Assembly: GCA_020152595.1 (NCBI GenBank)
Contig: JAIGNY010001194.1
Coordinates: 62,001 to 126,000 of the forward strand
Length of the DNA: 64,000 bases
Reading direction: 5' to 3'
Source: Chiridota heheva
Taxonomy: Eukaryota; Echinodermata; Holothuroidea; Apodida; Chiridotidae
Of the stretch, positions 16,607-63,911 are shown piece by piece; the stretch's first letter is position 1; every line of letters starts with the position of its first letter. The notes under the pieces were generated by a model, which made no database searches, was not told where the DNA came from, and worked only from the letters and a program-made list of their open reading frames with translations. Both the position numbers and the translations under genes were made by a program.

Positions 16607-16671
<65 letters not shown>

Positions 16672-19600: not shown

Positions 19601-22600
19601 TACCACATATGACCTGTATTGTATGTATTGTCCTTGAGTTACTGTGTTTGCAAGTTCTTTTCAACAAAACCTAATTCAGTCCTGCCCACTTTGTATATTA
19701 ATGATATTTAACAATTTTATATCTTGAAAATGTAAGCACTAGCTAACAACATAAATATACCAAGTATGAATCAAAGCAGACATGGAGTTGTTAAAATATG
19801 AGCATTTGAAGACTATTACATTAAGCCTACTCATAAATATGCATGGCAACACTACCAAAAACAATAGGGCACATATACAGACCATGGGCTATCTGTGTAC
19901 CACATATAACATGAATGTAGTTTATGGTTCTTGAGATACCATGTTTACAAGCTCTTTTCAAGGTACACTGGATGTCAGGGCTGGGTTGGTAACTACATTT
20001 TTGGTTCGGTTAGAAGTGCATTAGAATCAGGTCAGGGGACCAGATTGCATATTTATAGCATGGAAGGTATTAAAGATATAACTTGAAGTAAATATCAAGG
20101 TTGCTATGAAAAAATAATGAATAATTTAATATCTATTAGGCTTCACCAATCAGAATAACACGCTTGGTTGCATGTATTGAATATTAATGAGCTCTCATTT
20201 CATGTTTATATAAAGCGAGTGAAAACATTTACAAGGTTTGCAATAATGAATTCCTTTCTAAATACACATGCTTGTTTGCAGTGCCATTGAATGTGTGTTG
20301 TGTACTTGTTAAAGCATAAGCATGTTGAAAGGAACTAAAAAATAGTTTGAATCACAAAAGTCTGCAGTTTCATTCTCATTACGCCCAAAACTAGTTCGTA
20401 ACTCCCTATACCAAATTAAGCTGAAAAGTAAGGTAATATGCATACAGAGAAATCTATACATCAAAATTTCTGTGTATACTACGTGTAAATCACAATGCGC
20501 GTACCACTATTTTTCAAACAATTCAATTCAAATTTGTTTTTACCCAGATTTAAAAGATAAACAAAAAATCATTGAGCCTATGAGACGCGATGCGTACAAC
20601 ATGTGTACGCTGCAAGTTTGCCCGCGTTTAATGAAAGTGTATTTTGTGCATGGCATCCCGCTTCAAATCCGCATGCGTATTCATGAATATGAATAACCAT
20701 AGTGGGTTATCTAACTTTTTCTAGAGTAGTTGCTGATCTCAGCTAATTTTGGTGGTAAATTCTTCTCTAAAATTTTTACTATGAAAGAAAATATTGCATC
20801 CCATTTTATTATCTGCTTCCAAATCTTAAACATAAAAAAAGGTGCATGAACAGGGATAATGGACTTACAGCTTTCCCTACCATCCCATTTCCGAGGGATA
20901 TTGGACAGTTAAGCTTCCCCGCAGACTCGCTTATCAGTTCGTCCGCTTAAGTCGCTCAACCATCCAATATCCCACGGCAACGGAACAGTCTGAAAAACTG
21001 GTGTCCATTATCCCTTAATTACGGGTTCATAGACATACAGCTTTTCCTACAGTCCTGTTGAAGCAGGACAATGTACAGCCAGGTTCCTTAAGTGGACGAG
21101 ACAATAGCCACGTCGGCAAAGGAGACCAACTGTACATTTGCCTCCAGAACAAGGAAACAAGGGAAAGCTTAAGTCCAAGAATCGTGTTCATGTACATCAT
21201 TCATGTTTATTCAAGTGCTAAGTTTTAATTTTCCCTTGTTAGTCAATTCCTTTCCCAGGCCAGTGTTTATCTCTGATTTCAAAGGTGCAAGCAGATAAGT
21301 CTCATTGAATGGGACACTAATGCACTGTATTTCCATTACTTATTTGAGCAATAAAGCAGACTTAAAACATGCGATACAATCTGAACAAAAGAACATTTCC
21401 AGCCAGTAATTGCATGGAGAACCACTGCAATTTGAGCTAATTTTCAAACCTCTGACCTACTATGCTTCCCATAATAAGCGCACGTATAGATGAAAAATGT
21501 TGGCATCATATATATATACGTGTAAAAACATTAATGTTATGAGTTTAAATACCTCTGTCCTCTTTCATTTGATGTACAAAACTTTTTGAAGTAAAGTCCT
21601 TGTGAGTTGCAGTTTCAAAGTTGAGTTTTCTGCGTGTACTACCAGGGGTTGAAGGTTGTTTTCCTTGGTTGCCCTCAGGACTTACTGCTGAGTGGGCCCT
21701 CTGTCTACCATGGAGAGGCTCAACACCTTTTATTAGGCTCTTTCTGGCAGGAACAACCTTTGGCCTGCAAGCTGGAGACGGCTCACTCTGCCTCATCTGC
21801 TCTTCATACAACTGTAAAGTCATGAGCACACATACATTGATCAGTGGAAAGAATATATCAAACTTAGTTACAAATAATCATAGTTTACAAAAAATATTTG
21901 TGAATTACTCTATGTATGTCTTTTATGTGCCTTTAATTATCATTAGTATTACTATTATAAGTTACTTTCATTATAAACAGCGCTTTTATATAAACAAACC
22001 AAAGCGCTTAACAAAACACAGAGGAAGAAATAAGAATAAAGAATACAAACTTAAAAGCACTTTCTATGTGAGAGATATAAAAAGTATCAATTGAAATAGA
22101 AAAAGGTTGTTATTGATGCAAAAAAAAAAAAAGGAAGAAAAAAAAATGCCCTCTTTTTGGACTCGAGGTCCTTGAAGCAAAAAGTTGAAACCAATAAGCA
22201 TAAATATTGTAATAAACCAATAAAGGACAATTCTTCTGACCAAAAAGATGATGGTTAAAAGTGTCAAAAATTGTTGTTCTGTGACAAAAGTCCTCTTAAT
22301 TACTGAACTGCTTCTTTAGCAACTAACTTCTGATACGAATTTGAAAACTTGAGATCAGATTATTGATCTCAGAAATAAAAACAAATAGAACAAAATATGC
22401 AAAGAATTTTTTTAAAAACTGGTGTTTTCTCTCAAATTTCCTTTTCAGTAACCAAAAGAATATAGGAAACACTTAATAAAACAAACCTTTGCTTGTTTCA
22501 AGATATTCATTATTTCATCTGGTAGACCATTATCATCAACGTCAAGGTGTATGCAGCATGCAGCTAGCTGCTGCATGATATGACCAAGCTCATGGTAGAC

Positions 22601-25600
22601 AGGAGGCAGCATGCCATGCTCTGTCATCTGATCTGGCAGCTGGTGGATCAGGGTCTGGATGGTTCTCACAGCACCCCTGTGTGCAGCTGCAAGGCGGGTC
22701 AATGCTCTGCTCTAGGGTGCAAATATGAATCAAAAAGCCGGTTGTAAATCGTGTAATTATTGCTAAAAAATTGACAAACATGCTTCAATTCGTCATTATT
22801 CAGGGGTCAAATTTCCCACTGCTTTTTATGTAGCAACACTTCATCACTGTTTAAAAGATTGTGCCACCAATGATCAATAACTTGATTTTTGCTCCAAAAA
22901 ATGCATGTTGCGAAACAAAATTATCATAAAAATAATTTCTTTCCTAAGAAAAAGTTTTTCCAACCATGCCTGCAATTAACCTTTCCAGGTTTCCAAATAG
23001 GCCATGCCCACCATAGCAACACTGTAACTATGTGGGGCAAACAAACCTCAAATCCACAATTATGCATTACCAATGCGTTGACATTTAGATGTTCGCGAGG
23101 CCTGCTGCAAGCTTTGATTCATTTATGGCACTTCTTCAGATCTTTAGAGTTTTTAGCAAATAGGATAAACAAAATTCAGTTTGCTAACTGTTCTGGGTAA
23201 CAGCAATTTACAAAGCCCGCAGCGGGCTGTTAACAAAATTTGTATTCACCATTTTGCCGTCACTCAGTCTGTGTGTGTAGAAATTTGTTTTGTACAGTAA
23301 ATTGCATTGACTACATGAGCACGCAGCGGTAGCTAATTGTACTGTACCAGTAATGCATAGGATGTTTGCCCCACTTAACTACGCAGATTTTGTTGCTAGG
23401 AAAATTCGTGCGGTGATTGGTTAAAACAACCTGTCAATCAACCAAAAAGGTTAACTGTCAGCACAATTAACCAGGCTGCTTGCATGTGTAAGACTGTACA
23501 CAACTGGATGCTACATCATGTAAATACCAATATCCGAAAAACATATATGCACATATTACCCAATCAACAAATTTGTTGTAAATTAAGCCCATTTTGAAGA
23601 TAGGAATTTTTCGGAAAAATAGTTGCATCAGTTAAATCTGATCCAGAACAGTATTATTTGAGAAAGTACTGTTCCATAAAACAGTCACAATTTTTTTATA
23701 TTTTGACTCGTTTAAATTTTTGTGAAATCATGCTTGTATGTGAAAAATACCTGGTTTAAGTCCTGCCGTGAGTGTTACATCCTTGAGAAAGACACTTGAC
23801 TCTATTTGCTTCAGTTCACTCAGCTGTAAATGATTACCAGCACTGCTGGGAAGTTAATTTGTGATGGATTGGTGTCTTGTCTAGGGGGGGCCTGGGGACG
23901 CCATGTGCTCCTATATGCTAATGCCAAAGGAACCACGGATAAGCATCAGTCTTTTGGGGGAGCCATGTGCTCTCATATGCTTATGCCAAAGGAACCACAG
24001 ATAAGCATCAGTCTTTTGGGGAGCCATGTGCTCTCATATGCTTATGCCAAAAGAACCACGGATAAGCATCAGTCTTTTGGCCTGAAGTATGCATTAAACT
24101 TCTTTCAATTACATATGTATGTGCCAAAACTTACAATACTTTCTTAGATACCATTAATTAAAAACACTATCTGTTTTGTGTAAGCACCAAGCAGTGTGAT
24201 GTAGTAATAAAACTGAATTAAAAGAAAGAATATAGAAATATTGCCTGCAGATGTGATTAGTACTTAAATGCATAACATTATAGCAACCATATCTTTACCT
24301 TTTTTGTGTGCCTGATTTGGGAAGATCCGACCCTTTTTAAGTCTTCTTGGAGTTCCCTAACCTGTAAAAGAAAACAAAAACACCTTGTCTAAAAGTTTCC
24401 TTCGAGAAATACTTACAACTAGAAATGTGAACCTACACCAATTTCAATCTGAAAACCAGTAGAAGAATCGTTCAACATGTGATCATTGTTTACTAAACAA
24501 TAAGGCTTTTTTTTAATAGAATATATGATATGTAACTCCATGATTTGAAGGGAAAAAGAATTGAAGGAAGGCAATGAGATTTGCCAGACTCCTAGCTTTG
24601 CTGTTTTACAGGGGCGGTCTGTCCCACCCCTCCGTGGGCCCACCCACCCCTCTGTGGGCCCACCCACCCCTCCAAGGGCCCACCCTGCCCCCCTGAAGGT
24701 TCGCCCTGCCCCTCATAATATTATTATTTTATTTTTTTAATAGATTTAATAGAGGTAATTTAAAAGATTTGTATTTGGTATGTGACAATGTCTTGATACA
24801 TTATACTGGGATTGAATCTGAATTAATTTCAGTATATAATACTTAAATATGTGTGGAAAAGTAGTAGCAACATTAGCAAAATTAAGTAAAATTGTAGAAA
24901 AACAACAACAAAATCAATAACAAAAATCAGATGAATCGAAAGTTGACCATTTAGCACCTTTTTCAATCTTAGTATGCAATGCAAACTTGGGAATTTCGCG
25001 GGAAGAAAAATAATCAAAGATTTTTTTTTTTCATATAGATTTCTTGAGTAAACAACAGTATATATGTGGTAAATATGTGTTGTAAAAATGTCCCCTATGT
25101 AATTGTGCGATGAAAAGTTACATTAATTGCAAAAGAGGGAAGTATAGAAAGATGTATTCACTACATTAATATTTGTCACAATTTTTCGTGGAAAATCTTT
25201 TAACATCTTTATTCAGAAAAGTGGGAAAGTTTTTAATTCCAACTCTGATGAAAAGAAATTAAATGAATGACATCAAAGATTATAATCTGTCTTCATGTTC
25301 AAACATCACATGCTAAACTTCGATCAGGGATTACTCAAAAACTAAACATGATATTTTCAAAATTGTATGACTGTCTCTCTCAATATTTTAAGCCCTCTCA
25401 AATAAGATACAGAAGAGGGCAATTTTGAAGATTGTGATGAGTAAAAAAACTCATTAAATTAACTGAAAACATACTGTACCTGTTGTTGTAATGAATAGAG
25501 CAGTCTCGCAGACCTAGTTGCTTGCTCACTCTTTCTTGTTTTCTTTCTTGGGTCTTCATCTTCAGGCCTTGAGTTGAGCTGGGCTGTTCAATATTAAAAA

Positions 25601-26590
25601 TTATTTAAGAAACATTATATGAGCAATCAAGGAGTAAGCATACAAATCCGGAAACTTAAAAGAAACTCACAACTTTCAAACAAAAGACTGAAAATTAAAA
25701 TATGTTTTTTTTTATATAATGAAATAATTTTAAATTAAAAAACTACAAATAATAAATAAATCAAATAAATAAATAAAACATATTTGATAAATAAAGAATC
25801 CTACGGTACCTTCACTTGTCAAATGCTCAATCCTTTGTACATAAAACTTCATCTCCTTCCTCAGTCGTTTGATTTCCTGAGCTTGTCGGCTGTCAGGACT
25901 TAATTTGCCTGGAGAGGGTGAAGCTTGAGTCAACTTATCCACATGAATTGCTTCTCTATGTTGCTTTCCCGGAGAATTAAATGTCTGCCACCTGCTTCTC
26001 ACTTGGGATGCTGGGTACTCATCAAGTTTTCCCTTCCCACTGTAAAACACCATCTTGGTGGGAGGAGTTTGTGTTCTTACAGACTTCATATACAAATTTT
26101 GATTGAATTGTTGTGCTGGTTTCACTTTCACAGGTTTTGGGGCCGTTTTCACTGTCTGTGTTGTAGCTCTACCTTTATTCGCCTTTCCAACTTTCTTCTT
26201 TTTTGTCATTTTTGGTAATTCATGTTCCTCCTCTTTTTTTTTCTGATCTAGTTTCTGTTGCTGGAGCATGTTTTTCAAATCTCGTCTTGCTAACTGTATT
26301 GCCCATGACAGCTTCTCCTCCGAAACAATACTTAGCTTGACTGGAAGAGTACCCCTGTCTCTTTCTACCGGATTCTGTCCTGTATCTTTGCTGACTTTCT
26401 CAATAATTAAAGGACCAGGCTTTTGAAACCTGATTGCTAAATTTTTAGAATCACTGGGGACATTAAGGTTAAACTGAAGTTGATTTTGGTAAAGCATGCT
26501 TGGATGTTTCATATGCCTTTCCTTGACAACAGTAGCAAAAGGATCAAAATTGTTGGGTAGTGAAGAACCGACATTAAACTTTAGAGCCAT
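7675..26590 (-). CDS. KIAA0753: Moonraker (KIAA0753/OFIP) homolog, 14 coding exons
   Basis: In vertebrates moonraker is a centriolar-satellite protein that binds OFD1 and FOR20 and is needed for centriole duplication and cilium formation. Fourteen exons with consistent GT-AG phases give about 1,060 residues; human is about 967. Family landmarks seen in order: NQLQFNLNVPSDSKNLAIRF near residue 35; ATRSARLLYSLQQQVRELQ and RHTKKSRALTRLAAAHRGA around residues 282-330; VWLDAEAARK near 700; TLLQSLQVMEAEEEQIRRR near 820; FIPQDMIKRITDY and FNPWQLVEE before 1,000; a conserved C-terminal segment with YMEALYKTEFEQ. Start chosen because the distance from ATG to the NQLQF block fits vertebrate proteins. 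Exon 12 has a 1-nt frame break. The gene is divergent from the CCDC74 gene. Identification rests on remembered family sequence. Confidence 0.93.
8993..9361 (-). CDS. KIAA0753: Moonraker coding exon 13
   Basis: 369 nt, phase 2 to 2. A Ser/Pro-rich first half is followed by FSVFIPQDMIKRITDYRQHF and then YGTFNPWQLVE. This corresponds to the vertebrate FVPPGM...DYCSRFEQYL...GSFNPWLIAES block, a strong family signature. Acceptor TTTTACAG, donor GTAAGT. Confidence 0.94.
9751..9898 (-). CDS. KIAA0753: Moonraker coding exon 12, with frame break
   Basis: 148 nt. The upstream frame reads AEEEQIRRRWRGVRYHEH, matching the family's ESVRQRYNKIAYADP region, but meets TGA at 9785-9787. A second frame opens after the TGA at 9849-9851 and reads PDKTAESKEDWMMGTPLEG to the donor in phase 2, exactly what exon 13 needs. 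The length is therefore one base short. A possible rescue is a weak internal acceptor (ACCACAG) giving an exon 9751-9839, but it would drop the conserved part. Confidence 0.78.
10312..11765. repeat. 69-bp intronic minisatellite
   Basis: About 21 highly similar 69-bp units lie in moonraker intron 11, each containing GATCAAGCTGATTGTTGCAT, GGTGAGAGGTGAATAATCTT and AGAGCAGTATGCCAGACC. The period is 23 codons, so one minus-strand frame stays open over hundreds of bases (TKIIHLSPCNNQ... cycle). One unit near 10,448 lacks an A. Near-identity between units implies recent expansion or homogenisation. Confidence 0.95.
12172..12405. mobile_element. Short inverted-end element (MITE-like)
   Basis: Left end CAGTAGCGAATCCAGG and right end GGATCCACCACTG are imperfect inverted repeats. 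The resulting CAGTGGCGGATCC-type terminus is common in invertebrate hAT-like MITEs. I could not see a convincing 8-bp target duplication. It lies in moonraker intron 11. Confidence 0.45.
12728..12898 (-). CDS. KIAA0753: Moonraker coding exon 11
   Basis: 171 nt, 57 codons, phase 0. Contains MLLNDVLEDTAKELTRI and ends TLLQSLQVME, aligning with the vertebrate FLEDCASEL and RMEEME segments. Acceptor TTATCAG, donor GTATGT. Confidence 0.92.
13201..13284 (-). CDS. KIAA0753: Moonraker coding exon 10
   Basis: 84 nt, 28 codons, phase 0, including AIASMYGKSQHTSKQSL. Acceptor CTTTCAG, donor GTGAGG. No clear vertebrate counterpart; assigned by splice sites and phase. Confidence 0.8.
14505..14815. repeat. 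Imperfect tandem duplication
   Basis: Two diverged copies about 170 bp apart share TTACAAAGAGCACTTGC, GGAACAA and CTTCTTTTCATAT...AACTGTC. Located in moonraker intron 9. Confidence 0.65.
15082..15198 (-). CDS. KIAA0753: Moonraker coding exon 9
   Basis: 117 nt, 39 codons, phase 0: IKQLNERR, then AWIDEAEEAIQEKLQPLLDK, helical and charged. It matches the family's EAVLERLKPLL region. Acceptor CCACTTAG, donor GTAAGA. Confidence 0.9.
15245..15605. repeat. About 60-bp tandem repeat, six diverged copies
   Basis: Diverged units share AAATTCAGTAGAATTG, AAGCAAGGTTGG and a TTAGATATGATT segment. Located in moonraker intron 8. Open minus-strand frames here are incidental. Confidence 0.8.
15868..16172. 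repeat. Direct duplication of about 150 bp
   Basis: The segments 15,868-16,017 and 16,025-16,172 are nearly identical. Both start GCAGAATATCTATTACACC and include GATGCTGATT and CTAACACAGA. A recent local tandem duplication in moonraker intron 8. Confidence 0.88.
16185..16330 (-). mobile_element. tRNA-like SINE remnant
   Basis: On the minus strand GGTTCAATCCC matches the pol III B box (GGTTCRANNCC). It is preceded by GCATTAGCTTGGCATGCTAG, which resembles a tRNA anticodon arm. No complete cloverleaf is visible, so a SINE fragment is more likely than a gene. Confidence 0.4.
16536..16672. repeat. AAT microsatellite
   Basis: Pure and interrupted (AAT)n; about 20 perfect trinucleotides lie at the right end. 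It produces a poly-isoleucine minus-strand ORF with no biological meaning. Confidence 0.95.
16763..17149 (-). CDS. KIAA0753: Moonraker coding exon 8
   Basis: 387 nt, 129 codons, phase 0. Carries HFLQPTKTFILK, a proline-rich linker (MPAWTPSGTP), an acidic stretch and the conserved ARQVWLDAEAARK end, which resembles the AWLDAET motif of vertebrate moonraker. Acceptor TTCTCAG, donor GTATGC. Confidence 0.9.
17637..18009. mobile_element. MITE with long inverted ends, TAA duplication
   Basis: Left end AGGCCGTAACACACCGAACA and right end (reversed) AGGCTGTTACACACCGAACA extend as inverted repeats for about 40 bp through GCGAGCAATTTTTT. TAA flanks both sides (17,634-17,636 and 18,010-18,012), suggesting a 3-bp duplication of PIF/Harbinger type. 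Located in moonraker intron 7. Confidence 0.75.
18248..18435 (-). CDS. KIAA0753: Moonraker coding exon 7
   Basis: 188 nt, phase 1 to 0, residues 511-573. Begins TPGSPDRTSAIQAGL and ends in a basic stretch (RKPVKPKSLILPAKLK). Acceptor TTTTTCAG, donor GTGCGT. Confidence 0.86.
18970..19068 (-). CDS. KIAA0753: Moonraker coding exon 6
   Basis: 99 nt, phase 1 to 1, about 33 residues including HTFQQDKTAQHSRLTPGP. Acceptor GATCGCAG, donor GTCAGT. Little conservation is visible; the exact phase match on both sides supports it. Confidence 0.8.
19300..19960. repeat. Three diverged tandem units of about 250-290 bp
   Basis: Units around 19,315, 19,560 and 19,850 share ATCTGTGTACCACA, ACATATGAC and a later GTTTACAAGCTCTTTTCAA-like segment. 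Old tandem duplication inside moonraker intron 5. Confidence 0.6.
20845..21025. repeat. Inverted-repeat segment
   Basis: GGGATAATGGAC at the left and GTCCATTATCCC at the right enclose a GC-richer segment that also holds inverted copies of GGGATATTGGA and TCCAATATCCC. Probably a degraded foldback element in moonraker intron 5. Confidence 0.45.
21553..21811 (-). CDS. KIAA0753: Moonraker coding exon 5
   Basis: 259 nt, residues 392-477, starts LYEEQMRQSE and ends in phase 1. A polar, low-complexity linker rich in Ser, Pro and Arg. Acceptor CTTTACAG, donor GTATTT. Assigned by phase continuity rather than strong conservation. Confidence 0.85.
22487..22711 (-). CDS. KIAA0753: Moonraker coding exon 4
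   Basis: 225 nt, 75 codons, phase 0. Begins SRALTRLAAAHRGAVRTIQ, one of the best conserved stretches of the family, and ends EIMNILKQAK. Acceptor ACCCTAG, donor GTTTGT (weaker than consensus). Confidence 0.93.
22980..23450. mobile_element. piggyBac-like MITE, copy 1
   Basis: Flanked by TTAA at 22,976-22,979 and 23,451-23,454. Ends are CCTTTCCAGG and CCAAAAAGG, and inverted internal blocks share GTAACTA and GTGGGGCAAACA. Similar along its whole length to 50,488-50,969, and its end matches 63,912 onwards. Located in moonraker intron 3. Confidence 0.75.
23745..24095 (+). mobile_element. SINE with internal 65-bp tandem repeats
   Basis: A B-box-like GGTTTAAGTCC leads into a typical SINE body (CATCCTTGAGAAAGACACTT, CTGTAAATGATTACC). 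It is followed by about three tandem copies of a ~65-bp unit with GCCATGTGCTCTCATATGC and GATAAGCATCAGTCTTTT. In moonraker intron 3. Confidence 0.55.
24299..24361 (-). CDS. KIAA0753: Moonraker coding exon 3
   Basis: 63 nt, 21 codons, phase 0 to 0: VRELQEDLKRV then IRHTKK. This matches the vertebrate VKEIQEDL...KIKHTKK segment. Acceptor CTTTTACAG, donor GTAAAG. Confidence 0.93.
24985..25255. repeat. Dispersed repeat, pair with 43,085-43,335
   Basis: Shares GAGTAAACAACAGTATAT, AGAGGGAAGTATA and ATGTATTCACTACATTAATA with 43,085-43,335, same orientation, moderately diverged. Class unknown. Confidence 0.65.
25480..25583 (-). CDS. KIAA0753: Moonraker coding exon 2
   Basis: 104 nt, entered in phase 1 (G plus CC makes Ala), leaving in phase 0. 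Encodes residues 261-295, ending SARLLYSLQQQ, which matches the family's SAR-LYVLQQQ block. Acceptor TTGAACAG, donor GTACAG. Confidence 0.92.
25810..26590 (-). CDS. KIAA0753: Moonraker coding exon 1
   Basis: Encodes residues 1-260, starting MALKFNVGSSL. The exon extends to an acceptor at 26,616 (CACAG), so 25 nt of 5' UTR are present and an upstream non-coding exon is implied. Contains the family block NQLQFNLNVPSDSKNLAIRF, a lysine-rich middle and the coiled-coil start EIKRLRKEMKFYVQRIEHL. Donor GTACCG, phase 1. Confidence 0.92.
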
Positions 26591-26998
26591 GACTGAATTT
26601 CTGCCAGTGTTGTACCTGTGAAGTAAATAAAAAGTAAACTATCAAATTAAACATTATATGTACTATCATTTCTGAAAAATGCACAAACTTCATGTACCTC
26701 ATGAAAGTGGTCATAAGAGCTGTTTGCACTGCAATTACATTTGACTGTGACAAGTGTTGCTACAGCTCCAAGAATCAATGTTTTACTGCTAGTCTGCTAC
26801 TTAGTGTTTATGGCAATATGTATGGCTGATATAAAGTTTGATCAATTATTGATTTGCTTAGTCATGCACAGTATGACTGGATGGCCAGCTCAAAATCTTG
26901 ATGTAATTCTTTAAATTTCCTTTTAATCCTTTAGTGAGTCATTGATAATGATGGAATAGGAAAGTATATTATTTTACCCAAATTTGATTGTGGGTATA

Positions 26999-27140
26999 TT
27001 ATTATTATTATTATTATTCACAACTTCTACAGCGCCAAATTCAAAAAAGGCTCTTGGCGCTTTACAAAAGACAAAACATGAAAGACACAATAAAAGCTTA
27101 AATACAGTAAAACGATACAAGGGCCTAAACAGTATAAAAG
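26999..27140. mobile_element. ATT tract plus retroelement-like 3' end
   Basis: An (ATT)n run is followed by AGCGCC, CTCTTGGCGCTTTACAAAAG. Short ATT tails next to GCGC-rich ends are typical of L2/CR1-type elements and the SINEs that use them. Reverse orientation is inferred. Confidence 0.4.
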
Positions 27141-28467
27141 CTTAAACAAAAACAAAACAAAAAATTACTCAAAAATAACATTTGGGTCAGAATTTTCTGC
27201 ACCACTTCAAAATATTATAATAGACCTATAAAAAAACCAGAAGGATTTACAGTTTAATTTACAAATGAAAACATCATGGTCACCCTGCAACATATCACAA
27301 ACTAGAATCTTAGCACTCTGTGGAGTACATACATGTATCTCCGCCTTGGTTGCAATTCCAATATACAGTATGTCTAAAATAATCAGTAATAAAAAGTCCA
27401 TTTGATGCCATACCCAATACGATCTACCTCAGATATCCTAGGCCCACAAAGATTTGATCTATATTGATCATTTGCATTCTGAACACTTAAGGGGTTTATC
27501 CCCCATCTGAATTTTGTCCAGGACAATATCATTGTCTTCAGTTTTATTCAGGCTAAGCATCCATACTTCAATTTCATTTCATTCAAGATTCACATTTCCT
27601 GAGTATCCCATTCATGGCAGAAACCAATTGTTTTATTTTCTTTGGTAGTAGAGACCACTTGATTAAATTTTCAAGGAGTCCAGAAAATTGATTTGTTTGG
27701 ATATCCTTTTATGGCATGAATTAATTGCTCACCACATTTCATTGGAAAGTTTCACCTAACCCTACAACTAGTTTTATCCCCACCCTTTATTTCTACCCTT
27801 CCCTTGTACCAATACATCCCAAATTGTAATCACTTGTTTCTTAAGCAATAATAAAACCACACACCAAATTTATTACAAATCCAATCTTCAATGCTTGAGA
27901 TATGTTGACAGACAGTTTACTCTAAGAAATCCCACCCATCCATTTCTGCCATTTCCCTGTTCCAATGTCAAAAACTTTAATCACTTCTTACTTAAGTAGT
28001 AAAAAATTATCCTGTTCCTACTGTATTCTTACAATAAGTTACATACATGTAAGATTGTTTCCATATTAACTCGAGTTATTTCTGGAAAGTCAAGAAACAT
28101 CAAAACATGTAAAAATCCATACTTTCTCTGAAAAATAGAAACACTAAAATGATTATTTCTCTTAAAAAGGGAATTTCCCCTCTTACAGTAGCAGCTTTAA
28201 ATGACAAAATATAGGTTTTTGTTAATTCATTTTGATTCTGCATTCATAATTTAATATTAAATTTAAGCATTATTTATTCGTGGAACTACCTTAAGCCCAC
28301 ACCACATACTAAATGCATTTTTTTGTCATAATCGAACATTTAAATAACAACACAATAACTCACAGTATATTAAAGCAAAGTCGATTTATATATTTCTTTA
28401 CCTAATCTTTTACTATTTCCAGTTTCAAATCCGTGCACTAAAATGAGTTCGGGTTTGTTTTTCTTAC
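27141..28467. other. AT-rich stretch upstream of moonraker exon 1
   Basis: No conserved protein seen. Most likely the 5' intron of moonraker. The minus-strand candidate donor GTAAGAA (reverse complement of 28,461-28,467) could end a non-coding first exon whose boundary would be 28,468. Confidence 0.3.
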
Positions 28468-29183
28468 GTTAGCAAAAGGTCGCAAATGGAATTTAAAATT
28501 TCATTATTTTCAGTGGCAACATGTAGGGTCTTGATATGATAAGTCCAAGTAAAAAAGTTAAGATACATTTTGTTAGCCTTTAAAATGAATAAAAATTACT
28601 TTTTAAAATATTTTATTTCCATTAAAGATAATAATTTTATTAAAAATCTCAAATTTTACGAAAATTGCTTCCCTTTTAACTTTCATTTCAATTATAGACA
28701 AAAAAATATTTAAGGCTCGCTTTTTAATCTGGCATCTATATTTTGTACATTTAAAAAAGTGTTCAATAATTCGGAAAATTATATTGGACTAATATAAGAA
28801 AAAATGTTTCATTTCAAAGAAAATTTGATGAATTACTAGTAAAGACTAGAATTATTGCATACGAAAAAAAGTTGTATTATTGAATGATTAAGCGATCTTA
28901 AAACTTCACCTGACACTGACAGACAAGCCGACGGTCGTGTCACTTAGCAACGCAAAATTTGCATAAACAGTTTGCCTGCATTCATTATGTTGATGCTATT
29001 TTCGCGATTGCCCGAATACCACGTATGCTATACACAGTATATAATTATAGGCGCAGGCCTATGCACAGTGTATGTTACCGTGGTATTTGTATTGTTATTC
29101 ACAATCTGCAGTAACGTAAAGCCTGTATCGAAGTTTCTGTATACCCTAGCAAATTTTAAGACTGACTGAGCGTTTAGGATAAC
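28468..29183. promoter_or_regulatory. Putative bidirectional promoter interval
   Basis: This interval lies between the start regions of two divergent genes. A candidate moonraker 5' exon ends at 28,468 (minus) and a candidate CCDC74 5' exon ends at 29,205 (plus). No TATA box is obvious. It contains the X-box-like site at 28,939-28,951. Transcription starts are not visible from sequence, so limits are approximate. Confidence 0.35.
28939..28951 (+). promoter_or_regulatory. RFX X-box-like site
   Basis: GTCACTTAGCAAC fits the X-box consensus GTNRCC-N(0-3)-RGYAAC with a 1-nt spacer and one mismatch, in the left half. RFX factors drive many ciliary genes. The near-identical GTCACTTAGCAAT at 388-400 shows that chance occurrence is possible. 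Confidence 0.4.
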
Positions 29184-29205
29184 ATGGATTTACTTGGAAT
29201 GTGAT
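29184..29205 (+). other. CCDC74: Candidate CCDC74 5' exon end with short uORF
   Basis: A strong donor (GTAAGT at 29,206) follows an ATG at 29,184 whose frame stops after six codons (TGA 29,202-29,204). CCDC74 coding exon 1 is preceded by an acceptor, so a non-coding first exon is needed, and this donor is a plausible one. Confidence 0.3.
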
Positions 29206-29460
29206 GTAAGTTTATTTAACTTAAGTTTTGACTCTGATGGCATAACGTTAGTCGTTTAGTCTAATTAATTTCGAGTTGAACAGTTGAAGCTGGTTGGATA
29301 TTTTTTGTCAAATGTATTTTGTATTTGTAACATTACGCCCAAATCTGAATATTATTTGCATGGTAGGCCCATTAAATGTTTAAGTAAACATTGTATTCTT
29401 TATTTGAGCCTAGGCCGTACTGTAATTGATTTAGGCCTATAACAAATTAGGCACAGTTAA

Positions 29461-30432
29461 AGGAATAGGCCTATGTATTCCCATGATTTTATAATCTGTC
29501 GTAAGAAAGAGAATTTTTTTTAAACAATTTAATACAAAAAGCATGTTGATATGTTATTCCTACCAGGAGACACGGAACAGGAAAAGGCTCAGACATCACA
29601 ACAACACATTCTCCCACAAAGTTGATGTATTTCATTAAAATCTATCATCATTTTTCATTAGTTCAACCTGCTAGAAAAATAAATTGATGAAAGTTTGGTA
29701 TTCATATGCCGTACTTCCAATACTTTTGAAAATTGTTTCTAATGTTAATCAAAAAAAAACAATCAATTAACACTCAAAGAAATACGTTAACATTTGCAAT
29801 GGAATTGTTTTAGTATGACATCATCAAACACGAATTCATCATATCGTACAAAAACTTTGAAATGCAATTGGGAAATCTTTCAAAATCCTTATCTCCTGAA
29901 CGGAATATAATATCAACCTGATTTTTGTACCAAATTGGCTCTAAAAGTATGCTCTTTCAAAAAAAAAATCACAAAAAAGGAGTCCTGTTGTTCAGTTGGT
30001 AGAGCACATGACTGAGATGCTGGAGGTACCTGGTTCAAGTCTCTGACAGGTCTAACCAGTTTTTCCACAGCCATGCAGACAGATACACCGATCATCAAAG
30101 TGGAAGTACATCATTTGCAGCTTCTGCTCCTCATTCAGCTGTTGAGAGAAGTGGCAATGGTTGAATAGCGCTCGCCGTTCTTCAGAGGGGACATTGGGCC
30201 ATCGGTCCTGATGGTAGGACAGTCACACCCTACCTGGTTCTCTAAACACTTCTCGAAAAGAGTAGGGTGAAAACCCAGTGTCCATCCACTTCCGTCCCGG
30301 TCGCACGGGACTGGTATCTGCTATGCAGGCTATAGCTTGGCATCTATGCTTTATATAGGAGTCTTGCCGAGTTCCCATAAGGGAAGATCATGTACAAAAC
30401 CAAACAAAAAAAAAACCCATCGGAATATTCCT
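29461..30432 (-). mobile_element. TTAA/AGGAATATTC MITE interrupted by a SINE
   Basis: Reverse copy of the element at 57,185-57,783: left end TTAA then AGGAATA, right end GGAATATTCCT then TTTA. The body matches in reverse order (CAGACATCACAACAACACATT; CAATTGGGAAATC). A tRNA-derived SINE (about 29,980-30,412) splits it near the right end, so the SINE is younger. Lies in the presumed first intron of CCDC74. Confidence 0.72.
29982..30412 (+). mobile_element. tRNA-derived SINE
   Basis: The head has an A-box-like TGTTCAGTTGGTAGAGCA and B box GGTTCAAGTC with about tRNA spacing. A 350-bp body follows (CCATCGGTCCTGATGG; GTCCCGGTCGCACGGGAC), ending in an A-rich tail ACCAAACAAAAAAAAAA. It is inserted into the MITE at 29,461-30,432. 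No intact tRNA fold is expected. Confidence 0.75.
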
Positions 30433-30962
30433 TTTAGAACCTGTATCAACAGCTATCAATTTTAGAAACTTGGTATTTACATGTTTTCTTCCAAAGCAAA
30501 TATAGGCCTAGCATGCATCCTGAAATAGAATGTCTCACTTGGAATATAAAATACTCATTGTCTTAATTGTATATTTCCTCCACTATACTATTTAAGAGAC
30601 AAAAGTTTGATGTTTTAAATTTTTACTGATTGAAGTCAAGATTGCATATCATGTACAAAAAACTTAAGTAGCAAGTAACAAATCTATCAAAAAGTAAAGT
30701 GATTAGTATTATTTTTCTAGGAAATATAAAGTTTTGTTTGATAACAATATGGAATTTTAATAAGCTACATACTGTACTTTCATTGTTATACTGGATCTCC
30801 ATTTATAAACATTTCTTTCCTTGTCTTATTTCATTTTTGAAATAAGTGAAAAATGAATGTGTGAATTGAAGATTTATGCAAATTATTTCATTGCAATGGA
30901 TTTTGCCACCATCCCTTTTTTATATTTACAGATTCTGATAGGTCCATAAAGATGCAGAGGCT

Positions 30963-32039
30963 CACCTCACCTCACCTAGTCTCTTCAGGCTTCCTGGCCC
31001 ATAAAGCTACAGTGCACTCTCTTCACTGGACTCTGTTATTTGCAATTTGTCTGGCTTCTGCCCACAAGCTCCATCCATCACTTTTCTCTCCTTCTCGACT
31101 TTCCTTCTCCAGGCTGTTCTAGGACGAACAACTTTCCTTCTCCCCTCTGGTTTCCACATCATAGCTGTCACACAGTGCTTAATAGTGCTCATGTGCATCA
31201 CATGACCAATCCACCTCCACCTTCTTTTTACTTCAGTGCGGATTTTGTCATGTTTAGTGATTCTCAGTATTTCATCGTTAAGATATTACATATGGCCATC
31301 TGATCTTCAAAATTCTTCTGTAGCATTTAAACATACATGTATCCAGCTTTTTATTATCTGCTACATTAACTCTCCATGTCTCACAACCATACAAGAGTAC
31401 AGACTAAACAAGAGAGTTAAACATTTGTATTTTTGTATATATTGAGAATATGCTTGAGTTCCATATCTTATTTAACTTCATAAATGCTACTCTTGCTTTA
31501 GAGATTCTGTTTTGGATATCTTCCTTGCCACCACCTTGTAAGCTTACTGTTGCACCAATGTATTTAAACTGGTTTACTTCATTTAGTTGTTGGTTTTCGA
31601 TATAAACTTTGTTTGCACATTTGCTGTTAACTTTCATGAGCTTTGTCTTATCCTTATTAATTCTTAGCCCAGTTTGTGCAGCATACTGATTGAGCCTGGT
31701 CACTTTGGTTTGCATGTGTTGATATGTAGATGAAAGTAGATCGATATCATTAGCAAAATCTTAAGTCCTCAAGGGTTGACATGAACTTCCATGTAATTCC
31801 ATTCCTGTTATCATCAGTCGTTTTCCTCATCACCCAGTCTACCACCATCAGAAAAAGGAACCCTGACATTACATCACCTTGCTTTACACGACTTTTTAGA
31901 TTCCACACTACCATCTATAACTGCACATTCACTGTCTTCATATAACGCTTTAGTCAAACATTATATTTTGTGGAATACCATAGGCTGCCATTATTTTCCG
32001 GAGGCTTTTTCTGTGCACTGAGTCAAACGCCTTCTAATC
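30963..32039 (-). mobile_element. 5'-truncated LINE, reverse transcriptase remnant
   Basis: Read on the minus strand with frame breaks: KAFDSVHR and MAAYGIP (RT palm), VMSGFLFLMVVDWVMRKTT, FANDIDLLSS at the catalytic FADD position, GLRINKDKTKLM, FKYIGATVS, and a C-terminal RRKVVRPRTAWRRKVEKE. Asp to Asn in FAND and several stops show it is dead. The 3' end is a CTCAC repeat. CAGAGGCT flanks both ends (30,955-30,962 and 32,040-32,047). RTE/CR1-like; clade not certain. Confidence 0.85.
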
Positions 32040-32228
32040 CAGAGGCTACTCTGGCTAAATTGCTTTCTCATGAAAATCTAGCTGTAAAAATGTCATCAAA
32101 ATTAATGAAAAATAGACTATTATAAATATTTGAATTTTCAACCCTTGCTAATGCAATTTTTTTAAAGTTGATTTGTTATGTATTTAGTTATTTTGCTCAT
32201 CTTTTGCTTTTTAGTCACTTTCCTTTTA

Positions 32229-32555
32229 TGCACTTGTCAGTTGTATGACTCACCCCTACAACCTCTGGCAATATCAGTCAAAGGTGAGTCATTGACATAT
32301 GAAATAGTGACTCACATGTGCATTCATTGTACTAAATTGTTAGTCACCAGAGTGACTCTGAGGTGGGTCAATTTACTTTAGACACATTGACTTTGTACAG
32401 AGGTGATTGATTTGAGGTAAGTCATTTCACAAAAAATATCAGTCATCTAAGTGACCGAGGGGTGCGTCAATGTATATGATTTGTCCACCCACTTTGGTGC
32501 AATGACTCACCTTGTCCAGGGGTTGTAGGGGTGAGTCACACAATTGACAAGTGCA
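32229..32555. mobile_element. MITE with inverted ends, TTA duplication
   Basis: Left TGCACTTGTCAGTTGTATGA and right (reversed) TGCACTTGTCAATTGTGTGA are followed by CTCACCCCTACAACC in both arms, giving inverted repeats of about 35 bp or more. TTA flanks both ends (32,226-32,228; 32,556-32,558), fitting PIF/Harbinger-type insertion. Confidence 0.8.
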
Positions 32556-32558
32556 TTA

Positions 32559-33142
32559 CAGTTACTTTGATCTGTTTAAAGCTGTATATGCTTGTTTTAT
32601 CTTTTGTGTTTTACCTGGTTTGCACTCCAACCATTGTGCTCAAGCAGAGGTTTCTGCACAGTAAAGGAAGATAATGATATGGAAATAATGAATCCAAATA
32701 TGCCAAAATTCTTCAAAATTAATCAGGAAATCATAATAATATTGTTTTTGGACATCAACCATGATACAGTACAATATCTTATGAAGCAATATCAACTTAT
32801 CAAGCTAGAAATTGGAATATACATTTAAAAAACAATTAAATTAAAGATGTATATGACATTAGCCCAATCATTTTGAGTTTTGTTGCCAGCTGTTCTTCAC
32901 AAATCTTGTATGTTTTGAAAATCTTCAAATTGTGATCCACTACTATATAATCTCTTTAAGTTGATGATTTACAATGTAGCAATAAGAATAATTTCATTGA
33001 TTTGAACAAAAATTGACATTTGTAAGATAGGCTTTGATTGTTTTTGTATCTCAGTCTCAGGAAAACAGTACAAGTACAGTACAGTCATTTCTGAAAGAAT
33101 TTTGACTTTAAACTTTATGAATTATTTCTCTTTTGTTTACAG
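32559..33142. other. AT-rich intron-like stretch
   Basis: No conserved protein recognised. Probably the end of the 5' intron of CCDC74, closing with the acceptor TTTTGTTTACAG at 33,131-33,142. Confidence 0.4.
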
Positions 33143-33271
33143 GATTGTATTGGTATATATGAAAACAGAAAACTATTAACTTGGAAGAATAGTCACATCT
33201 GAAAGGGACCTTTCCAAAACTATTTTTGTATCAATTTTTTTCTCATCTTTGCAAAGCTGTTTATTTTACAA

Positions 33272-33626
33272 ATGAGTGTAGCCTGCGGTGTATCCATGGA
33301 GACCCAAGCTGTTACGTCAATGAGCTTGCCTCCCCTTCAAAACTTGCCACAGTGGCCGCGTATGCAAACATTAGACAAAGCCCGCTATCCACGCCCCTTT
33401 TTAAAAGATCAAATTCAAGTTTTGCCAACTCCCAATGTCAATTCGTTCAGTGGAAGGGATTTACTTGATCTGGACAGTCTAGATGGCACGTCAGTGTCAG
33501 GGGAGATGGACCCAGCACATCGGATGCATCATCTTGAGAAAAGTATTGAATTCTTGAAGAGACATCATAGAGAAGTTCTTGCCAGTTTACATGAAGAGAT
33601 AGCATCCTTGAAGAAGGAAAATAAAG
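33272..33626 (+). CDS. CCDC74: CCDC74 coding exon 1
   Basis: Exon from acceptor at 33,143 with 129 nt of 5' UTR, then ATG at 33,272. Residues 1-118, ending in the coiled coil LHEEIASLKKENK. Donor GTACGG, phase 1. A second in-frame Met at residue 9 is an alternative start. Confidence 0.92.
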
Positions 33627-36600
33627 GTACGGTCTTGTGTTTTGAAGTCGTCACGAAAGAATGTTGAAAAGTTCTCTTTAATTTATTTTGTTTGACTAAA
33701 TATATTAATGTGTCCTTTACATAACTATTTCATCAAAATGTTTGTTTTGAATTGTGATATCCTGTTAGAGATGAGCTTTTTAGTATGACATGTTAAGAAG
33801 AAAATTTCAGTATGTACTTCAGAAAATCTTTTACAAAAATCTTTTAATTTTTATTATTTTAAACTCCCGGCGCATTTTAAAAATAGTGCTGGTAGAGTAA
33901 GGGTTAATCAGCCCGCGACATATCGCCAACCGAAAATTCAGCGGAAGGGTCCGACTTTTTGACCCTTCAATAACATTTGACTCTCTGACGTTTTGTGCCC
34001 GTCTTTGCAGTGCTGGTTAAAGTAACGGTTAGCAACAAACCAACCTTAAACTTCAGCATATGTGTAATTTAGCTAATCTTGCCTCTTATAATATTATTAA
34101 TTATATTATTGTATATTATATCTTATAATGCATTTTTTTTAAAAATAATGATATGCTTATAATTTCAAGATTTATGGACAGGCAGAACAGAATAGATAAT
34201 CAACCATGGAAATATAATTTTGTTTTGTCAAAATCAGTTAATTACTTTTTTTAGGTTCTAAATATGTATTTTTTATGCAAATTTGTGATGCACTGTATCT
34301 ATGGGCAGACCTCTTTTGTTCCTATTTAAATCCATTGTTTTGGAATCCTCTGCCACATTCTTTTGAAGTACACACAGGTGATTCAGATAAGGAGTTTTTG
34401 ATTGTATCCAAATCACTTGTCAAGTTTCTGCTCAGGTCAACACAAAGTGTCACAAACATAATCTCAGCAGCCTGACAGCTTGTACTAAAACACATAAAAT
34501 ATTCAGGGCGACCTAATTTTATTTCAATGTCTAGGGGACAAGTTGTCTTAAGAACTCTGATTGTAGCTATGCTCCTAATCATCTGCAGCATAAAACGACT
34601 TTTATATTCTTCTGAATATTTTCTTTAAAAAACATATAAAAATAAATCCTACCATACATGGGGTGACAGATCATTTGCTGTTGCAGCTCCGCGTCTTTGG
34701 GATTGATTGCCACTCCATATCAGGTTGTCTTTTGTTGATTCATTCAAAAATAATCTAAAAGCCTATCTCATGTGTGATGCCTATGTAAATATGTATTTAA
34801 TTTAAAATCCTTGTTTATTATTTTATTGTTCATGTATACTTATTTGTAATTTTAATGTAATATGTATTATTGTTATTATTAAAATTATTATTATTATCAT
34901 TATTATTATTATTATTATCATTATTATTATTATTAGTATTATTTTCTCACATTATTTTGATGTTGATTTACCAAGAAAGAAAGATGCAAATTATTTAATT
35001 GTATTTTCTTTATATTTCAGAATTACAATTCAAAGCTATTATGGGAAGAGAAGATACACCCAAGAAAGGTTTGTAATTTTCATGTTTTTTAATTACTGCA
35101 TAAAAAATAGACTTTGTAGTCACTCAAAACATTTGTCAGTGTTGACTATTGATCAGTTCAGTATGATCTGTGCTTAAAGGAAGTTGAATTTATTGCTATA
35201 AAAGTTTCATATGTACTTATATTACTGCCTAATGTAAATTTGTATTGTCAGAAAATTTTCATAGTTATTATTTTCTTATGAAATGTGATTGTAATGTTAG
35301 TTTCATAAATTACATACAGATACAGTATTCCCTTATCGTATGTTGTACACATATTACTGCCTAATTTGTTGTGACACACACTCAACTTGTTGTTTTATAT
35401 GATCAATATTAAACTTGAAAAACATGATTCAACAATCGTTTATCAATGGCCTCATTGATTAAGTGTTTAATAGCATCTGTAGATTAGCTTCCATTTTACT
35501 TTTCATTGAAGGTTTCAGATGGTTTTTTTACGGAAAGTGAAGAAAAACCTAGCACATAACACAGCATTACCTTAATTGGCACTTATATTACACTGCATGG
35601 TTTCTTTGTTATGTTTTTTGATCATATGTAAAAAAAAAAATGACCAAAGCTCATTGATTTCCTTGTTTGCCTGATTTAGGAACTTGGCTAAAGCCAGAAA
35701 TGCCACATCATATTTGATCATGTCTTATCATCTGTTTTGTTCATATTATTAGTGATATGAACCTTTTTTTTTTCATTTTAACAATAACAGAGTCAACTAG
35801 TTCCTCTCCCAAATCCAGGACGCCTGAAGAAAGCAATAATCCATTGTCAGGATCACAAGGTAAGCTCAGTAAAAAGTTTAAAAAAAATCCTCAATGAAAC
35901 AGTTGGTGATTCAACCTTGTTGGGAGTAATCACCCCACTATAGGTCTGACTTGTGTACTGTAGATGTTATTAACACAAGCCTTATAATTGGACAGTTTTC
36001 ACATTCTTTTAAAACTCTTTAAAGACAATTCACAAGTGGCTACAGAAAGTTTGGGGCACAAATGATCACTTTTAAAGTGAACACACTTCCGGGTTTTCTT
36101 TTTCGGTTTTTCTAACAATGCTTTTAAAACTTCTTCCACCCAGATGAGACAATTCGGACAGACATAACATGGACAACCAAGTTTGTCCACTGCCTTTGAT
36201 AAATGTCACTATCACTATCCAATTGTCTCTCCCTTTTATTGTTAATTATTTTATTGTTGATTGTCCCTATTCCAGTAATTCTAGGGACTACCTCTCATAT
36301 TATTAGGTCCTCAAGATTATAAAGCTTAAACCATTAAACCTAGAGATATTGCCACCTGGCTTGAACACCTTTTTAATCCACCTTTAGTCTTGTGTTTGCT
36401 CACTGTGACTTTATGTTTATTTTAATCTTCTTTTTACCTGTTTGGACAAGACCAAGTCTTTCTGAAAGCCACAGCTAATAAATGGCTGAAAAGATCATTG
36501 AAGATAAATGGCTGAAAAGATCATTTGACAGAAGTAATTTACATAATTATTTACATCTTCTTTTAAGCAATTGAAGATTTGTTCATTCTCTGTACATGAA

Positions 36601-39600
36601 TCATTGAGGTAGATTGCATTTTTGTAAATGTTACTACAACACAGCTGGAGGCCTTTATATTTGTGCACTTTGCATATTTAACTTTATTTTTGATAAGCAT
36701 ATGGTTGCTTGCCCAACTATCGTATTTGCTTCAGGTGTAAGGTAGCCTTGTATATTTTTCCTGGTCTATGTCACAGTATTTTATTAAGATAAGGGAGAAA
36801 TTCTGGAAGGAAAGTATGCATGAATATGTTTCTTTTGAATTATTGTAGTGTACAATATTTTATAAATTTTCATCATCTTTCTACACATTTCATGCTTGTA
36901 TTTTTTCTCTTTCTCTTTCATTTAAAGCTAAAAAATTAGATCAACTGAAATCCATGTTCCTAGAAGAAAAAATTCGAGAGTTACAAGGTGCTTTACAAGA
37001 GGCTCGCAACAGCAATGTTTACCTCCAACACAGACTAAAGGAGACATTGGAGAAAAGGTATTGGTTTGATTTAACCAATATTTAGTTTGATTATTATTAG
37101 TTTGTCATAAATATCCCCCAAATCCAGTGTCTTATTATCTCTGTAATGAGCGAGAATTTAATTGCAGCAGATTTGTGTATGTTCTAATGAAAAAGCCCTT
37201 GAGAAGTTTTGTGTCTCAGAGATAGATCATTTGTAAGTTACTTAAAATAGCTTGAAATGATTAAATCTACAAATTTTTAGCACCATAAATTTTTAACACC
37301 CTCCTGGTAGATTTGACTCTGACTGTCGCAGTACCTTTGAACATCAACAAACAAACGTGTATTTTTAGGGATATATTTAATCATAACTTTATTTGAGAAG
37401 ACGTTGTTATATTGTTCATTTTTGGGGGTTTTAAGACAAACTTATAGTTTTCATTTCAACCAGGTTATTATCTTTAAAGTAGAAAATGTATTTAATTTTT
37501 ATAGGTAAATGACTATCATAACTTTAACTTACACTTTTACCATTGTTTTTCAAAAGATGCATGAAAAAGTAATAATAATAATAATAATATAAAAAGATAA
37601 ATAAGATTGATAATGCGCACATATCCATCCTAATGGATGCTCAAGGAGCCGTACTAATAACATTAAAATTACAAATAAGTATATATGAACAATAAAATAA
37701 ATGAACTGATTTTAAATTAAATATATATTTGCATAGGCATCGCACATGAGATGGGTTTTTAGGTTCATGTGTATAATACCCCATTTCTCAAAATTAGCTA
37801 AGGCTCTCTCACAAAAAAGAGCTTGTCTCTTATTGACTTATTGAGTGTAATCAGGAGCGGCCCTACCCGTTCTGAACCCCCTGAACTTTAATTTGAATTG
37901 CTTCCTGAAAACAGCCTTTGGCGTTTGATTGATTTTTCTCCGTAAGTGACACTATTTCAATCAACCCTCATGAATTTGAATGAGTTGTTACCATGACGAT
38001 ACCACCATGATAGCTAGCTTCTGTGCATACATACAGCTTAGATTAGTAGTCTCAATATATTTACATAACCTGGACAGTGTGAAATAGTTTCCTAGCTCCA
38101 GTTGCAATTCAAATATTTATGTTGAATTTAGTAATCATTGAAACCCATTAGTTTTATTCGCTTGTTTGAGGAATGGATTAAATCTATCTCCATTGGGTTG
38201 GTTAGATGCAGAATGGAAGTGGATTAAATGCTTCATTGATGTTCAGGGTTACATAGAAGCTATTTCTTGTTGTTTTCTAGTGGTTGACATGGTGCAAAAG
38301 TTTTTCCATTGCAAATAAGATAAAGGTACCATTTGAGATGTAGGTAAATGTTCTCACAACTTTATGGTGTATCAAGCCATAAATAATAGGAACATGACCA
38401 GAAATGTTTAGAATGTAGCATACCAAGTTATGGTTTTAAAAATAATTCTTTTATTTGCAAGAATTGTTGTATACATTTTCAGGTATTCCTTAATTTCTTA
38501 AGATGAAAAAAAAAAAAAAAAGTGTCTGGTAATTGTTATGGCATAAGGATGATTCTTTCTTATTGAAATAAGTAAATATGATCAAACAGTTTACTTTTCT
38601 AAGATTATGTAAATTTTAAACTCTGCTCTTATAACATGGTGTAATTCTATTTCAAATCCTCTGTGGTACTCTCTTTAATTGTGCTAGACATATAAGTTGA
38701 TTCCTCTCAAAAGATAAATAAAAAGCCTGCAGAAACACTGATGCCAAGCTGGGAAACAGAAAGTGTGGAATTACATGACCTTCTGCTTTAACAAAACTAA
38801 ATGTTATTTAATTCCTAGAACATATTTTGCAAAGAAATGTAAAATGTAATACATGCAAATGTTGGTGCCTTCATTGATGAACTCCTGTCTCTACCTTACA
38901 ACAGAGTTGTTGGCTTGAGTTGCTGACATGGACTTGAGTCGGACTTGAGTCACATTTTTTTGACTTGTGACTTGACTTCTGAACATATGACTTGACTTGT
39001 GAACAGTGACTTTCAAAAATATGACTTAGTTACAACTCTCTGCCTTATAGACTCTTCCTCCTTCATCATTTCTTATTGAAGTATTGCATGGCTCCACTTT
39101 TTTCTCCAGACCAAACAGTGAGGAGATTGGACAGAAATCCAGCCCATCGAATAGTGCACAACACTATGAAAATATTGTTCCTCTTAGTATTCATCCTCTT
39201 CAAGTTCAGCGACCGACAGACACAAGACCCCGCGCCCCAACCCTGGAGGAATGCGAATTGATTATCAGGAGGCTGCACGAAAGCAATGAAAGGCAGCATC
39301 ATGAGGTGAGTGTGGGGTTGTTGGTGAGTTAAGTGTCGCCATGACAACAATGTTCAAATAAGAGATTAGAGTATGTCAGAGGTGCAAAGAGCTTGAGAGG
39401 AGATAGTCAGGTGAGCAGGAAATAGGTATGGAAGGGAGAAGTTTAGATGTTCCGAGTGTGTGGCAGTCAAAGATTAACAGACCTGAAATTGCACCAATCA
39501 TGTTTGCTGCTTACAGAGTTAGGTTTTTTGTTAAATTATTTCCTGTTCTTAACTCACCTCACCTCACCTAGTCTCTTCAGGCCTCCTGGCCCATAAGGCT

Positions 39601-48786: not shown

Positions 48787-49235
48787 TAAAAAATATTCCC
48801 ACTGTTTTTTGTAAAATTTTATTTGAAAGAGCATACTTTTAGAGCCAACTTGGTACAAAAATCAGGTTAATATATCATATTCCATTCAGGAGATATGGAT
48901 TTTTGAAGATTTCCCAATTGCATTTTAAAGTCTTTGTACAGTATGGTGGATTCATGTTTGATGATGTCATAGAGGCAATTCCATTGCAAATGTTGATGTA
49001 TTTCTTTGAACATTAATTGGTTGTTTCTGTATGATTAAAAACAATTTTTCAAAAGTTATTGAAGTAGGGTATATTTGGCAATGTACATAAATACCTAACT
49101 TTCATCAATTGATTTTTCTAGCAGGTTTTACTAATACAAAAGGATGATAAATTTGAATGAAATACACAAACTTTGATGGAGAATGTGTTGCTGTGATGTC
49201 ATACTGAGCTTTTTCCTATTCGTTTCTTGACAGCT
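48787..49235 (+). mobile_element. TTAA/AGGAATATTC MITE, right-truncated copy
   Basis: Matches 57,185-57,640 over most of its length (TATTTGAAAGAGCATACTTTTA; TGCAAATGTTGATGTATTTC split across the body) but lacks the right terminal part. Confidence 0.68.
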
Positions 49236-63533: not shown

Positions 63534-63911
63534 CTGTGGGGAGCAGATTTGAAACTTGTTGATCTTCCTAAAATATATTGTAGGTACACCTTAATATATT
63601 GAATGAACAGGTACAATGAACAGAATGTTCAACTTAACTTTTTTTTACCAGTTCCCCATTTCTTAAAATTGTATGTAAAGGTTACAAAGCATCACATCAC
63701 ATAAACAATGCTTTAAATAACAATAGATTTTATGTTCTTTACTTTCAAAATTGCATAGTAAATTATCTAGCTAGTTTTGAATTAGAAATTTTTCCGAAAA
63801 TTATGCTAAAATGATGTAAGATAAAAGCATGGCCAAGTTGGGCAACTGTATATTCTGATTAATGTTCTTTTTAAATATTTAGAAGCACAAAAAATGGCTA
63901 TCATTAATTAA

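Follow-up and report, generated by a model that had tools for sequence, protein, structure and literature searches.

A CpG-rich interval between divergent moonraker and CCDC74 genes in Chiridota heheva: a candidate shared promoter with an X-box-like site

Head-to-head gene pairs can share a bidirectional promoter, a term used where less than 1 kb separates the two transcription starts (PMC4089025). A probable promoter of this kind has been described near the ciliary gene Cep290 in multiciliated cells of Xenopus, where H3K4me3, transcription-factor binding and expression are known (PMC5245798). Ciliary promoters are also known for the X-box bound by RFX factors. Its consensus has been given as GTNRCC N0-3 RGYAAC, and that of the RFX monomer as GTTRCY (PMC10530576), while a restricted consensus, GYTRYY N1-3 RRHRAC, has been used in Drosophila (PMC2375033). 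In human RFX targets, the sites lie near transcription starts, with a robust window of 500 bp on either side (PMC5838959), and in conserved choanoflagellate ciliary genes 60.4% of RFX-like motifs lie within 50 bp of transcription starts (PMC10530576).

We analyzed a stretch of 64,000 nucleotides of Chiridota heheva DNA (the window), in which an earlier note had proposed that moonraker and CCDC74 lie head to head with an X-box-like site between them. The pair resembles those served by bidirectional promoters in that two divergent genes enclose one CpG-rich interval. However, its transcription starts are predicted only, and its coding starts lie 6.7 kb apart, so that a distance below 1 kb between the starts is attainable solely through predicted non-coding exons. 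Like the Cep290 promoter, it involves a ciliary gene for which a start in both directions is proposed, but the evidence for the pair comes from sequence. The X-box-like site is similar to the X-boxes of ciliary promoters in its overall form, its spacer of 1, its perfect half-site GTTGCT and its place in the probable promoter core. It differs by one mismatch, by a weak second half-site and by the chance-level frequency of such sites in the window, and it is a candidate X-box. The divergent pair is an ordinary, even routine, arrangement of genes that includes a single candidate binding site.

Moonraker is a centriole distal-end gene with a role in building the base of the cilium. Among nine minus-strand open stretches between 8,992 and 26,638 that were scanned with Pfam, four match the MNR family (PF15718), and the other five are without a match. 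The four matches are collinear with the family profile (profile positions 12-238, 297-367, 739-788 and 836-930), and their E-values range from 3.6e-26 to 1.1e-3, with three of them above the curated cut-off and the weakest below it. The candidate first coding exon occupies 25,733-26,615 on the minus strand (PF15718, E = 3.6e-26), where the exon start is at 26,615, the ATG at 26,590 and the 3' end nominal. Further exons lie within 8,992-22,711 on the same strand, with PF15718 matches in the open stretches 22,448-22,711, 12,713-12,925 and 8,992-9,378. A PDB search with the first coding exon returned no meaningful match. Inside the span of the gene, at 10,321-11,765, there is a 69-bp tandem array of 21 copies (97% matches), within which minus-strand reading frames stay open over 259 and 212 codons.

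On the plus strand, the first coding exon of CCDC74 occupies 33,143-33,626, with its ATG at 33,272 and a donor after 33,626 that ranks 53 among 6691. It encodes a CCDC92-type coiled coil (PF14916, E = 1.6e-12) and gave no meaningful match in a PDB search. Two CCDC74_C exons lie within 39,051-41,147 on this strand, in the open stretches 39,051-39,329 and 40,968-41,147; the E-values of their matches to PF14917 are 5.1e-8 and 1.3e-4, the latter below the curated cut-off. The two domains of the CCDC74 family, an N-terminal CCDC92-type coiled coil and CCDC74_C, are therefore both present. The plus-strand stretch 36,849-37,082 has no Pfam match above the cut-off. The probable last coding exon, 44,120-44,258 on the plus strand, was found by its residue pattern; it ends in ADRQKRMHAVKRARQQRKEVFL followed by a stop, which we take to resemble the human CCDC74 C-terminus. 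With MNR matches on the minus strand and CCDC74 domains on the plus strand, the proposed divergent pair is borne out. The interval previously given for it, 28,468-33,272, has the CCDC74 ATG as its end coordinate, and the moonraker ATG lies about 1.9 kb outside.

The best support for a promoter common to the two genes is independent of the X-box-like motif. The ratio of observed to expected CpG is 0.37 in the whole window, and the interval 28,201-29,400, our candidate shared promoter, exceeds all other 1.2-kb windows (step 50) in this measure, at 1.12 versus 0.79 for the next. In a CpG-depleted genome, a CpG peak of this kind has the look of an unmethylated promoter. The interval between the genes is CpG-rich on the 1.2-kb scale, but the signal at 350 bp is not unique. 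The core, 28,926-29,275, contains 16 CpG, the maximum at this scale, and shares that count with a window at 7,351 that lies in a minisatellite. Its ratio is 1.29; among the 16 most CpG-rich windows listed, those at 5,051, 20,376, 33,826 and 17,651 have ratios of 1.53, 1.29, 1.28 and 1.26. A blastn comparison of 28,400-29,300 with the window found no second copy.

Splice sites were scored with generic weights that were not trained on this organism. The acceptor before the moonraker ATG exon (TTTACTTCACAG, before 26,615) ranks 16 among 7083, and that before the CCDC74 ATG exon (TTTTGTTTACAG, before 33,143) ranks 6. Because both acceptors are very strong, both genes probably have upstream non-coding exons. 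A candidate 3' end for the moonraker non-coding first exon lies at 28,910-28,952 on the minus strand, with 28,910 as the last exon base and the other limit nominal; its donor heads the 58 found on the minus strand of 28,201-29,400 and ranks 70 of 6691 overall. For CCDC74, the candidate donor of a non-coding first exon lies at 29,205-29,206 on the plus strand, between AATGTGAT and GTAAGTTT, and is the best of 66 plus-strand donors in the same interval (198 of 6691 overall). Use of these two donors would allow both transcripts to begin within the 295 bp that separates them. The overall ranks of the two are middling. On the minus strand, the donors at 27,733 and 27,784 score higher and lie nearer the moonraker ATG exon, and on the plus strand higher-scoring ones occur at 32,283-32,530, inside a repeat-like stretch. 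The moonraker boundary at 28,468 that the earlier note implied (28,468-28,469, minus strand, between TTGCTAAC and GTAAGAAA) is a weak donor, which ranks 6 of 58 in 28,201-29,400 and 456 of 6691 overall; we have discarded it as the best end of a moonraker first exon in favor of 28,910.

Given the CpG peak and the strength of the acceptors ahead of the two ATG exons, we think it fairly probable that the region at 28.2-29.4 kb is one CpG-rich, probably unmethylated bidirectional promoter common to moonraker and CCDC74, where we infer the starts, the lack of methylation and the sharing. For moonraker, transcribed leftward, splicing would join a short non-coding first exon, whose end is best placed at 28,910, to the ATG exon that begins at 26,615. 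CCDC74 would be transcribed rightward, and an intron of about 3.9 kb would separate its non-coding first exon, with 29,205 as the leading candidate for the end, from the ATG exon that begins at 33,143.

Several repeated sequences lie in or near this presumed first intron of CCDC74. Remains of a reverse-transcriptase element are found at 31,407-31,760 on the minus strand (RVT_1, E = 1.9e-5, below the cut-off), and the segment 30,961-31,291, part of the reverse-transcriptase remains in the intron, has a 90% copy at 39,553-39,877. Inverted repeats of 46 nt at 32,223-32,268 and 32,516-32,561 are 89% complementary and 247 nt apart, and the whole unit, 32,223-32,561, looks like a small non-autonomous DNA element. 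The repeated GTGAGTCA of this element gives high-scoring donors that are probably spurious. A short repeat at 29,900-29,978 has copies at 48,805-48,883, 57,239-57,297 and 57,692-57,747 that are 85-90% identical, and an Rfam scan of 29,850-30,450 for a tRNA-derived element gave no match. Elsewhere in the window, we observed a nested 44/60/268-bp minisatellite at 6,464-7,712 and a tRNA match at 16,272-16,343 on the minus strand, which scores 32.4 bits against an Rfam gathering score of 29 and for which ARAGORN makes no call. A coiled-coil-like stretch at 63,186-63,590 on the minus strand, which matches ADIP weakly (E = 0.033, below the cut-off), is perhaps part of another gene at the edge of the window.

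The X-box-like site GTCACTTAGCAAC at 28,939-28,951 (minus strand GTTGCTAAGTGAC) is confirmed, as is its distance of one mismatch from GTNRCC N0-3 RGYAAC, which it therefore does not match in full. It combines a perfect RFX half-site and a weaker half across a spacer of 1, and its minus strand opens with the perfect half-site, GTTGCT, which fits the monomer GTTRCY. The site falls inside the CpG core and is 29 bases away from the moonraker donor at 28,910, and if this donor is the true one, the site is probably close to the moonraker start. The 13-mer has one exact copy in the window; with a tolerance of 2 mismatches the number rises to 4, versus a shuffle mean of 1.22, a count of 4 being reached by 3 of 100 shuffles. 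A near match at 388-400, which had been thought to weaken the motif argument, does exist. The final C of its half-site is missing, and its flanks agree with those of the site at just 14/60 and 14/60 positions, so that it does not represent a copy of a repeat. Two other motifs near the site were considered as support and found weak: a forkhead-like ATAAACA at 28,963-28,969, given that RTAAACA occurs 51 times in the window, and the octamer ATGCAAAT, with 19 occurrences.

It is important to consider how often such a site arises by chance. X-boxes with one mismatch or better have 15 matches at 14 distinct starts in the 64 kb, versus a mean of 11.1 in 30 shuffles (range 6-17). A one-mismatch X-box is present in 88, 95 and 109 per 1000 local shuffles of 28,926-29,275, 28,468-29,205 and 28,201-29,400, and in 134 of 200 shuffles of 26,615-33,142. 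Others actually occur between the two ATGs at 27,279, 30,668 and 32,343. One-mismatch sites are thus found at chance frequency, and therefore the earlier note's criterion fails to set GTCACTTAGCAAC apart. We also used a half-site matrix, consisting of ad hoc weights and written after the site was known. By this matrix only 39,335 scores higher in the window, and the score of the site is reached by 5 and 12 per 1000 shuffles of 28,926-29,275 and 28,468-29,205. The seven best matches include three others between the two ATGs (32,343, 27,279 and 26,756). The restricted Drosophila consensus is matched by the minus strand, GTTGCTAAGTGAC, and has 8 distinct starts in the 64 kb. These finer measures modestly favor a real site, with the caveat that the weights are ad hoc and were applied post hoc. 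The widest published X-box consensus has 93 matches in the window, and is thus uninformative here. An initial pattern, GTNRCY, was loosened post hoc to admit the site, and we set its shuffle figures (21/2000, 9/2000, 27/400 and 26/400) aside as evidence. The sole zero-mismatch GTNRCC N0-3 RGYAAC in the window is GTTACCAGTAAC at 43,788-43,799 (minus strand, spacer 0), roughly 0.3 kb ahead of the probable last exon of CCDC74.

The previously proposed shared ciliary promoter consists of two claims that fared differently. The shared promoter has gained support from the CpG peak and the strong acceptors, neither of which had been used for it. Our analyses lend no support to the claim that, in this lineage, CCDC74 belongs to the cilium genes. 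Human CCDC74A/B are described as crosslinkers of spindle K-fibres (PMC6744678), and ccdc74 has served as a tegument marker in schistosomula (PMC7749135). Among the literature matches listed, none links CCDC74A to cilia, and one CCDC74A passage is a reference-list entry only. The words "cilia" and "cilium" have a count of zero in the main text of PMC6744678; this carries little weight, as the count of "expression" is, oddly, zero too. Matches for CCDC74 together with KIAA0753 contain nothing related, judged by title.

Two readings of the X-box-like site are compatible with a shared promoter. We give roughly even chances to the one in which the promoter is an ordinary bidirectional one of housekeeping type, the site is a chance match and RFX has no role. 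The 14 distinct one-mismatch sites versus 11.1 expected and the 88-109 per 1000 local shuffles that contain one argue for it, as does the report that presence of an X-box alone failed to predict RFX dependence in Drosophila (PMC2375033). However, the ad hoc weights make the site locally unusual (5 and 12 per 1000 shuffles), and its position within the CpG core, at a distance of 29 bases from the interval's best moonraker donor, also speaks against pure chance. According to the other reading, RFX bound at 28,939 would switch on the two genes in ciliated cells, possibly together with a forkhead factor at ATAAACA (28,963-28,969). This is consistent with the perfect half-site, which fits the reported monomer GTTRCY (PMC10530576), with the restricted Drosophila consensus, whose 8 distinct starts in the window include the site, and with the forkhead-like heptamer 11 bases away. 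The second half-site is poor, though, the forkhead-like RTAAACA is found 51 times in the window, and the literature matches listed provide no evidence for a ciliary CCDC74. We therefore consider RFX-driven activation of both genes a possibility to be held tentatively. That RFX binds at 28,939-28,951 and couples both genes to ciliogenesis, a step beyond the shared promoter itself, is likewise possible but rather doubtful.

A third explanation dispenses with sharing: moonraker would start near 28.9 kb, and CCDC74 would start near its own ATG exon, at about 32-34 kb. The region 33,101-34,300 has a CpG observed/expected ratio of 0.68, which is sixth among the 1.2-kb peaks, the 350-bp window at 33,826 reaches 1.28, and there is a one-mismatch X-box at 34,022. 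However, the acceptor of rank 6/7083 lies directly before the CCDC74 ATG exon, and therefore that exon is probably not the first. In addition, parts of 30-32.6 kb resemble mobile-element sequence. We regard separate promoters as unlikely, and prefer one promoter at 28.2-29.4 kb common to both genes.

A more far-reaching proposal, which we consider quite improbable, is that in this lineage the centriole distal-end gene moonraker and CCDC74, which encodes a microtubule crosslinker, are tied together under a single bidirectional promoter driven by RFX, and that CCDC74 was ancestrally a protein of the basal body or axoneme, its role in the human spindle being secondary. Shared regulation of the pair, if real, would tie CCDC74, a little-studied microtubule protein, to the ciliary program, and it would offer a rapid guilt-by-promoter check on CCDC74 wherever an animal has cilia.
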